Below, in pieces: positions 24,867 to 27,569 of a DNA stretch of 64,000 nucleotides (positions within the stretch are counted from its first letter, which is position 1; the number at the start of each line of letters is the position of its first letter). The notes under the pieces are model-generated. The model was not told the DNA's origin. It worked only from the letters and a program-made list of their open reading frames with translations, and searched no databases. The DNA comes from an uncultured Eubacteriales bacterium (GTDB lineage Bacteria; Bacillota; Clostridia; Peptostreptococcales; Anaerovoracaceae), in assembly GCA_902778585.1 (NCBI GenBank), contig CACYYD010000001.1, positions 62,001 to 126,000 on the forward strand, read 5' to 3'. Both the position numbers and the translations under genes were made by a program.

Positions 24867-27569
24867 ATGAGCATCAAAAGGATAACACTCGGAATACTCG
24901 CGCATGTAGACGCCGGCAAGACGACCTTGTCGGAGGCTTTGCTGTACCTTACAGGCGAGATAAAAAAGCCGGGCAGAGTAGACCACGGAGACTCATTTCT
25001 TGATGACAACGCGATAGAAAGAAACCGCGGCATCACGATCTTTTCGCGTCAGGCGAGATTCACGGTAAAGGGCGCAGTTGAGAGTGAGCCGGATACCGAA
25101 GTGACCATGATAGACACTCCGGGACACGTGGACTTCTCGGCCGAGATGGAAAGATCGCTATCGGTAATAGACTACGCTCTTCTGGTGGTGAGCGGCTCCG
25201 AAGGTGTGCAGGCTCACACGAAGACCCTGTACAGGCTTCTTAATGAAAGAAACATCCCTGTATTCATCTTTGTGAACAAGATGGACATAACTGTAAGGGA
25301 TAAGGAAGACCTCATATCCGAAATGGCGGCTGACCTCAGCGCCGGGCTCGCTGACTTCAGCGGCGCCGCGGGGATGACAGACGGCTTCATTGATGCAGTG
25401 ACTCTGCATTCGCCTGAACTCGCAGAGACCGTTCTCGAGGGCGGACTGCCTGATGACAGACAGATCGCAGATGCGGTACTCAGGGGCGAGATAGTGCCGT
25501 GCTTCTTCGGCTCAGCTCTTAAGATAGAGGGCGTAGAGCCGCTGATAGAGGCTATAGGAAGATATACTAAAGAACCCGCATACGGCGATGAATTCGGTGC
25601 AAGGGTATACAAGATAGCCGACTCGGGTGACGGCGAGAGGCTTTGCTTCATAAAGGTCACCGGAGGCGAACTGAAAGTAAGGGATAAGGTAAGGATAAAC
25701 AGCGCGGCAGGCGGCGAAGGCAGCGAGGAGAAGATCAACAGGATAATGCTCTACTCCGGCAGCCGGTACGTCACTGCCGATTCCGTACCGGCCGGCACGG
25801 CGTGCGCCGTGACGGGGCCCGCGCGGGCCCTGCCGGGCGACGGCCTTGGTGCCGAGCCGCCGCTCCATACCCATTCTATAAAGCCTTTCATGGTATATGC
25901 GGTAGACGGTCCGGACGGCATGGATCCGTTCCTCCTCATGAAAGACCTCAAACTTCTCGAGCAGGAAGATCCTATGCTGAATGTGGCCAGGCGGCCTGAC
26001 GGCAATATCGAGATAAGGCTCATGGGGCAGGTCCAGCTCGAGGTCCTGCAGGCAGAGATAAAGGAAAGGTTCGGCTATGACGTCAGCTTCAGTACGGGAA
26101 GCGTCCTCTACCTCGAGACCGTAAAGGGAACATACGAGGGCATGGGTCACTTTGAACCGCTGAGGCACTACGCCGAGGTCCACCTGATCATAGAACCCGG
26201 TGAGCGCGGAAGCGGCATAGTGATCACGAGTGATGTCCCTGAGGATGAGCTCGCGCTCAACTGGCAGAGGCTCATCATGACGCATCTCGAAGAAAAAGAA
26301 CACAGAGGCGTACTGACGGGCGCTCCACTGACAGATGTGAAGATAAGCCTCGCGGCTGGCAGGGCGCACGACAAGCACACCAACGGCGGCGATTTCAGAG
26401 AGGCTACATACAGAGCGGTAAGGCACGCTCTCATGCAGGCGGCTTCCGAAGGTAATGCAGTCCTGCTTGAGCCGTGGTGTGAATACGAGATAGAGCTGCC
26501 GGCCCAGAATGTGGGCCGCGCCATGACGGACATAAAGCAGATTGGAGGCAGCCAGTCGGGCCTCGAGCAGAACGGGGACAGTGCAAGGATAAGCGGGCGC
26601 GTTCCGGCTTCGGAGATATCCGACTATCAGGTGACGCTTGCCGGATACACCTCCGGAGAGGGGCGTCTGTCCATTGCTCCTGCCGGTTACTCCGAATGCC
26701 ATAATGCTGCGGCTGTGATCGAAGAAAGCGGCTATGATCCTGAGCGCGATACTGAAAACACAGCGGACTCCGTATTCGTCAATCACAGCGGAAGCGATAT
26801 CGTCAGATGGGACGAGGCAGCAGAGCACATGCACATAGCAAGTGTGCTCAAAAGGCGGTCTGCGGAGAGAAGCGATGGGTACTTCAGTACAGCGGTTCGC
26901 AGCGCGGGCGGTGAAGCCCATGTCGACGCAAAGGAAGCAGCGCGCAGAAGGGCTGCGGCAGAGAAAGAACTCAGAAGCATCTTTGAACGCACTTACGGAT
27001 CTTCAAAGCAGACGCACCGCAATGACGCAAGAGAGGCCGATTACAGACAGAAGCCGGAACTCACTGAAGAGGAAGCTGCAAGGAACCGGGCCCGCAACGA
27101 GGAGATAAAATCGCGCCTTGAGCACAAAAAAGGACAGCAGGATGAAAGACCTGTCACTGTCCTGATAGACGGCTACAACCTGATATTCGCGGACGAATAT
27201 CTTAAGGAACTTTCCGAACGCGACATGGGATCGGCGAGAGACCAGCTGCTCGACATGCTCGGCAATTACGCGGGCTATACGGGCTTTGATGTGACGGTCA
27301 TATTTGATGCGTACAATGTGCCGTACGGAACGGGCCATGAGGAGATCATAAACGGCATACGCGTAATGTTCACGGCTGCCGATGAGCCTGCGGACATACG
27401 CATGGGAAAGATGACGGCAGATATGAAGGACAGGCAGGTCTATGCCGTATCTTCAGACAGCCTCGTCCAGACGGACGCCTGGACACACGGGGCACTCAGG
27501 ATCTCTTCGCGTGAGTTCCTCGCGATGCTTGAGCGCACCGAAGAAGAGATACGGAGCAGGCTATGCTGA
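24867..27569 (+). CDS. TetM-like translation GTPase with C-terminal NYN (Rae1/YacP-like) nuclease domain
   Basis: Protein of 900 residues. Residues 1 to about 650 match the EF-G/TetM ribosome-protection fold: G1 AHVDAGKTT (12-20), RGITI (54-58), DTPGH (83-87), NKMD (137-140), then domains II-V. A charged linker of about 100 residues follows, rich in Lys, Arg and Glu. Residues about 760-900 are an NYN/PIN-like domain of the YacP/Rae1 type (VLIDGYNLI with Asp768, VIFDAYN with Asp814, SSDSLVQTDAW). Rae1 is known to cleave mRNA in the ribosomal A site, and TetM-type GTPases bind the same site. I infer a ribosome-associated factor that both remodels the A site and may cut mRNA. The 157-base upstream region has TATAAT at 24769-24774 and a GAAGGGA site. 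Confidence 0.9.
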   Translation: MSIKRITLGILAHVDAGKTTLSEALLYLTGEIKKPGRVDHGDSFLDDNAIERNRGITIFSRQARFTVKGAVESEPDTEVTMIDTPGHVDFSAEMERSLSVIDYALLVVSGSEGVQAHTKTLYRLLNERNIPVFIFVNKMDITVRDKEDLISEMAADLSAGLADFSGAAGMTDGFIDAVTLHSPELAETVLEGGLPDDRQIADAVLRGEIVPCFFGSALKIEGVEPLIEAIGRYTKEPAYGDEFGARVYKIADSGDGERLCFIKVTGGELKVRDKVRINSAAGGEGSEEKINRIMLYSGSRYVTADSVPAGTACAVTGPARALPGDGLGAEPPLHTHSIKPFMVYAVDGPDGMDPFLLMKDLKLLEQEDPMLNVARRPDGNIEIRLMGQVQLEVLQAEIKERFGYDVSFSTGSVLYLETVKGTYEGMGHFEPLRHYAEVHLIIEPGERGSGIVITSDVPEDELALNWQRLIMTHLEEKEHRGVLTGAPLTDVKISLAAGRAHDKHTNGGDFREATYRAVRHALMQAASEGNAVLLEPWCEYEIELPAQNVGRAMTDIKQIGGSQSGLEQNGDSARISGRVPASEISDYQVTLAGYTSGEGRLSIAPAGYSECHNAAAVIEESGYDPERDTENTADSVFVNHSGSDIVRWDEAAEHMHIASVLKRRSAERSDGYFSTAVRSAGGEAHVDAKEAARRRAAAEKELRSIFERTYGSSKQTHRNDAREADYRQKPELTEEEAARNRARNEEIKSRLEHKKGQQDERPVTVLIDGYNLIFADEYLKELSERDMGSARDQLLDMLGNYAGYTGFDVTVIFDAYNVPYGTGHEEIINGIRVMFTAADEPADIRMGKMTADMKDRQVYAVSSDSLVQTDAWTHGALRISSREFLAMLERTEEEIRSRLC

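Follow-up and report, generated by a model that had tools for sequence, protein, structure and literature searches.

Which ribosomes, if any, would be served by a protein that joins a translational GTPase resembling those of tetracycline resistance to a nuclease of the Rae1/YacP type? The question is raised by a gene of the window, the stretch of 64,000 nucleotides analysed here, whose assembly is nearest to Mogibacterium MAGs from the ruminant gut, in the family Anaerovoracaceae. The open reading frame is intact at the coordinates originally given (24867-27569), begins with ATG and closes with the stop codon at 27567-27569. An assembly artefact can be discounted, since each of the best 80 relatives in GTDB genomes carries the fusion in a single frame; their hosts are Mogibacterium, Anaerovorax, Oscillospiraceae, Lachnospiraceae, Fusibacter, Clostridium punense and Desulfosporosinus.

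Proteins of this type have been noticed before. Atkinson 2015 described Tet proteins in ten Clostridiales species that had gained a YacP-like NYN domain, and proposed that they might cleave rRNA or confer resistance in a new way (PMC4342817). The window protein has the same domain architecture and host group (Clostridiales) and, by these two described traits, almost certainly belongs to one family with them. In that account, however, the fusions were filed under the Tet subfamily, and the replacement of stand-alone YacP and the distinct tip are absent. The original prediction knew of no functional description of the joined architecture; this stands for the function, as no account of how a coupling of GTPase and nuclease would work was found in the literature searched, outside which the main Rae1 papers lie, but the architecture itself had been published in 2015. 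New here are that the GTPase falls outside curated Tet membership, that the gene is a core and non-mobile one, that it almost never occurs together with stand-alone Rae1, that tip and catalytic residues do not vary, and that the tail of Rae1 has been lost.

Architecture of the fusion protein

The features of the gene are the following.

24867..27569, plus strand: whole gene, a GTPase-NYN fusion of 900 amino acids and stop (open reading frame and Pfam)
24882..25568, plus strand: GTP-binding domain with G' region, residues 6-234 (Pfam)
25638..26090, plus strand: domains II (258-325) and III (340-408), divergent (Pfam below cut-off; EF-G fold over 1-624)
26103..26441, plus strand: domain IV, residues 413-525 (Pfam EFG_IV, 61.8 bits, over cut-off)
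26139..26186, plus strand: loop I of domain IV, GMGHFEPLRHYAEVHL, residues 425-440 (alignment)
26358..26399, plus strand: tip loop III of domain IV, GRAHDKHTNGGDFR, residues 498-511, in place of the Tet tip YYSPVSTPADF
26460..26708, plus strand: domain V (EFG_C), residues 532-614 (Pfam, 63.6 bits, over cut-off)
26685..26834, plus strand: family-specific extension past domain V, residues 607-656, where unfused relatives stop
26835..27152, plus strand: charged variable linker, residues 657-762 (poor conservation, low pLDDT)
26967..26999, plus strand: conserved helix motif in the linker, ELRSIFERTYG, residues 701-711 (alignment, predicted structure)
27159..27557, plus strand: NYN_YacP (Rae1) nuclease domain, residues 765-897 (Pfam, sequence, fold)
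27168..27170, plus strand: catalytic acid D768, equal to Rae1 D7 by alignment
27306..27308, plus strand: catalytic-type acid D814, FDA motif (alignment)
27393..27395, plus strand: catalytic-type acid D843, xAD motif (alignment)
27456..27458, plus strand: catalytic-type acid D864, SD motif (alignment)

The N-terminal module belongs to the EF-G/Tet branch of translational GTPases and has kept the G motifs and the EF-G fold. Pfam GTP_EFTU covers residues 6-234 with 168.8 bits, over its cut-off, and the motifs G1 (AHVDAGKTT, 12-20), G2 (RGIT, 54-57), G3 (DTPGH, 83-87) and G4 (NKMD, 137-140) are all present. D15, K18, T20, G55, D83, K138 and D140 are invariant across 109 fusions, and H87 is found in 108 of the 109. 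The matches to EFG_III (340-408, 23.7 bits) and to domain II (D2, 258-325, 17.0 bits) remain under the Pfam cut-offs, yet their order is right, and Pfam recovers the five-domain EF-2/EF-G architecture with its G motifs. The EF-G/TetM-like core with G motifs at 12-140 that had been predicted agrees with this domain order and with all four motifs. A fold search with the full model matched EF-G over residues 1-624 (Z 40.5) with an rmsd of 11.8, a value attributed to domain rearrangement. At the end of domain V, within a GYxxCHN motif, C611 (26697-26699) is an invariant cysteine (109/109 fusions).

Between the two modules lies the linker, charged as had been proposed and mostly disordered in the predicted structure, with pLDDT <50 at residues 669-687, 709-729 and 753-758. 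Amid this variable region of the fusions the helical motif ELxxIFERTYG is conserved, and it is possibly a docking element.

The nuclease domain gave a Pfam NYN_YacP match of 112.8 bits (residues 765-897) against a cut-off of 24.6, and a sequence search with the C-terminal 140 residues reached Rae1 of Bacillus subtilis (5mq8/5mq9) with E about 1e-17. Because the GTPase filled the match list of the full model with EF-G-like structures only, the NYN region was folded and searched separately, together with 21 relatives (mean pLDDT 83). The predicted structure superposed on B. subtilis Rae1 with Z 19.8 and an rmsd of 1.6 A over 129 residues, the best structure other than Rae1 having a Z of 8.7. Profile, sequence and fold thus concur in the assignment of these residues to Rae1/NYN. 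The aspartates 768 and 814 of the original prediction are correctly placed, and the rest of the acidic site is made up of D843 and D864. None of these four acids varies in 109/109 fused proteins, so that both conditions named as refuting the original prediction, a C-terminus without NYN/Rae1 match and unconserved acids, fail to hold. The nuclease site is, by its residues, catalytically intact. The B. subtilis protein (5mq8, 5mq9) shares the nuclease fold and the catalytic acids with the fusion, but it is a stand-alone protein of about 170 aa, adjoins rlmB (yacO) and carries a basic C-terminal tail, while the window NYN is fused, sits at another locus and ends near Rae1 residue 140, without that tail. 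For Rae1/YacP of B. subtilis the reference is Leroy 2017, as given in papers that cite it.

Distribution of fused and stand-alone Rae1

The genome of the window contains a single PF05991 match, and its rlmB is located between serine dehydratase and hisZ-type genes with no yacP beside it. In the family Anaerovoracaceae the YacP domain is found in 105 of 198 genomes, nearly all of the ORFs being as long as a fusion; a few are shorter and seem to be fragments or to be cut by contig ends, and no clear stand-alone Rae1 gene was found among the 105 YacP-positive genomes. Across 391 Clostridia genomes the lengths of YacP ORFs were bimodal, 119 genomes carrying the fusion, 102 the stand-alone form and 10 an intermediate length (probably contig-end cuts for the most part). 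Among the 230 YacP-positive genomes resolved in this sample both forms occurred together in one, against 31 expected under independence. A sample of the phylum, 299 genomes, gave 18 with the fusion, 137 with another form and 0 with both. The Fisher P of this mutual exclusion is 6e-18 for the class and 2e-5 for the phylum, values that ignore shared ancestry and overstate the independence of the data, since the exclusion is partly by descent. The results of the survey bear out the expectation that genomes with the fusion lack a separate Rae1 and, as far as gene content can tell, the fusion stands in for it. Between a third and a half of the genomes of each sample lacked both forms, which makes the function a dispensable one.

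The sole genome of the class sample with both a fusion and a stand-alone Rae1 is G522 (L090, L091). The stand-alone gene of G418 may be a contig-split fusion, and G327 holds two fused copies, of 894 and 890 aa, perhaps by contamination or duplication.

Both states are present inside the same families (f25, f26, f30 and f31), hence the switch between them probably happened more than once. In the NYN tree the stand-alone domains form one clade (100/99), with the exception of G436, which is nested among the fused domains; a single origin of the fusion was not rejected (p-AU 0.40). The row P0001 of this tree is a fragment of 92 aa, its close relatives being of full length. The NYN of G436 (L088) has stand-alone length, about 173 aa, its genome also encodes an unfused GTPase of the other clade, and the gene is a candidate for gene fission.

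The surroundings of the gene were also inspected. The neighbours trkH-trkA and ppiA-mscL were considered as conserved operon partners and rejected, since they are common only to close Mogibacterium-type relatives and give no evidence of a partner. No Rfam match that could mark a regulatory leader was found in the window, promoter and terminator scans remained at chance level, and membership in a defence system was discarded after PADLOC returned one weak, chance-like match (E 0.003).

Possible action on the ribosome

EF-G and Tet factors put domain IV into the A site (cf. Atkinson 2015, PMC4342817). Rae1 is an mRNA endonuclease acting in that same site (PMC12320835, PMC6613710). As the A site is the place assigned to domain IV and to Rae1 alike, they could not occupy it jointly, and the simple picture of a nuclease delivered there to cut fails sterically; a sequential step must be assumed, with delivery in sequence or at a neighbouring site.

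The C-terminus of the nuclease bears on how it would reach the ribosome. The end of stand-alone Rae1 is a basic tail of the LEKIRR type, with a mean charge of +2.35 over the last 12 residues, while in the fusions the corresponding mean is -0.05 and the basic tail is gone or swapped for a neutral end; the basic motif was found in 11 of 109 fusions versus 21 of 31 stand-alone proteins. Suppressors of a B. subtilis efp mutant that act by loss of Rae1 function include R166P, a substitution within the tail (PMC6613710). Erosion of the tail is expected if the GTPase took on targeting, and we infer that it has assumed this role of the Rae1 tail.

The reading preferred here, to which a probability of about 0.5 is given, is that a GTPase of the EF-G/Tet branch, bearing an intact Rae1 on a flexible linker, fills in for the absent stand-alone Rae1. 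Taken together, the analysis makes it most likely that the fusion would be a ribosome-directed GTPase-nuclease, which cuts mRNA on stalled ribosomes and replaces Rae1. We infer ribosome binding, an mRNA substrate, cleavage at the A site and the order of the GTPase and nuclease events. The GTPase would recognise a ribosome whose A site is vacant or stalled, the invariant HTxGGDF tip of domain IV would probe the decoding centre, and GTP hydrolysis would act as the switch by which domain IV is withdrawn or released. The tethered nuclease, on a linker of roughly 100 residues, could then cut the mRNA on the same ribosome, and tmRNA-SmpB would clear the truncated complex left by the cut; tmRNA and SmpB are both encoded in the genome of the window. 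This more detailed version, a GTP-gated rescue nuclease whose HTxGGDF GTPase selects stalled ribosomes and licenses the cut by the tethered Rae1, and which replaced free Rae1 across much of Clostridia, is put forward tentatively, with the odds somewhat against it. If it were true, many gut Clostridia would use a one-protein factor in which a translational GTPase is coupled to on-ribosome mRNA cleavage. How Rae1 finds its ribosomes would then become testable in these proteins, as the targeting module is covalently attached.

The GTPase also exists without the nuclease. Unfused proteins annotated as 'translation factor GTPase family protein', from Clostridiaceae-type genomes and Ligilactobacillus salivarius, have the HTxGGDF tip and the extension after domain V as the fusions do, and form one clade with them in the GTPase tree (100/100), but lack linker and nuclease; the clostridial genomes examined have a separate Rae1. 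Such relatives, mostly of 650-670 aa and ending just past the domain V extension, occur in 14 of the 61 genomes that have stand-alone Rae1, and the two unfused GTPases of the phylum sample, whose genomes were picked without regard to YacP, were also in genomes of that kind. By gene content this co-occurrence is a link of the Rosetta-stone type between GTPase and Rae1, in a small sample. A GTPase found alone must have a job without the nuclease, and from this, as well as from the long and variable linker, it could be argued that the two halves share a chain for co-expression only, the NYN acting as an ordinary Rae1 and the GTPase as an auxiliary factor similar to EF-G or LepA. This separate action is considered unlikely, given that the erosion of the Rae1 tail and the conserved linker motif suggest a division of labour, and that there was only one clear case of a stand-alone gene split off from an NYN of the fused type.

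Somewhat more doubtful is that the nuclease cuts rRNA or tRNA, in maturation or in order to inactivate faulty ribosomes. The idea follows Atkinson 2015, where an rRNA RNase ability was proposed for the clostridial Tet proteins (PMC4342817), and NYN/PIN folds do cut structured RNA too, a minimal protein-only RNase P being among the weaker structural matches of the domain (Z about 7-9). However, that proposal is older than the Rae1 papers, no other homologue comes near Rae1, a protein for which the cutting of mRNA during translation is reported, and stand-alone Rae1 and fusion replace each other.

Relation to tetracycline-protection proteins

The Tet proteins are the nearest GTPase group outside the fusion family, with about 31% identity. 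Tet(O), Tet(M) and Tet(W) share with the fusion a five-domain EF-G-like GTPase, and differ from it in loops I and III of domain IV, in the C-terminal extension and in the nuclease. In loop I, where H428, E430, P431 and H434 are invariant in the 109 fusions, GHFEPLRHYAEVHL stands where Tet has IHIEVPPNPFWASV. The Tet sequence of tip loop III is absent from the window protein, which has GRAHDKHTNGGDF there instead. The HTxGGDF tip, in the family form GRAHxKHTxGGDF, is found in 109/109 fusions and in every relative examined, fused or unfused, and in none of the Tet or EF-G sequences examined. In the GTPase tree the HTxGGDF proteins constitute a single clade (100/100) beside Tet.

The best full-length curated profile was tet_protect (NCBIfam NF012153), with 385.4 bits against a cut-off of 775, which the positive controls Tet(W) (852 bits) and Tet(O) (849 bits) surpassed; the tested fusions of the HTxGGDF family scored far under it. 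The GTPase of the fusion is a subfamily separate from the tetracycline-protection proteins, so that the description as TetM-like holds for the fold and not for family or function. Drug-blocked ribosomes, named as a substrate together with stalled ones in the original prediction, are not favoured, because of the Tet score below the cut-off and the missing Tet tip. Near-full-length fusions were present in only 2 of 72,556 plasmid records, and the fusion is a widespread core chromosomal gene, not a mobile resistance gene. The least probable of the alternatives, a Tet-type ribosome-protection resistance protein with an accessory nuclease, as in some database annotation, may appeal to tet_protect as top profile, to a GTPase tree that unites the family with Tet to the exclusion of EF-G (99/91) and to the label of an Agathobacter rectalis homologue, but is very unlikely with half of the curated score, HTxGGDF in the place of YYSPVSTPADF and a gene so rare on plasmids.

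Two GenBank "Bacteriophage sp." records, MT835514 and MT835563, also contain fusions. A phage or mobile origin was rejected for MT835514.1 (L294, a fecal scaffold), where the fusion sits among mraW, gltX-type and feoB genes, neighbours by which the DNA looks bacterial.

The fusion is often mislabelled as a tetracycline-resistance protein and, if the present reading is true, core genes of this type that bear a TetM/TetW-type label may raise the apparent number of resistance genes in gut surveys. The A. rectalis fusion (L103:4989-7790, on a replicon of 252 kb) is annotated as TetM/TetW/TetO/TetS resistance. The unfused HTxGGDF-type GTPase of L. salivarius megaplasmids (L105:3989-5923) is mostly annotated as Tet resistance as well, and in the L. 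salivarius record examined it adjoins rpsN (S14).
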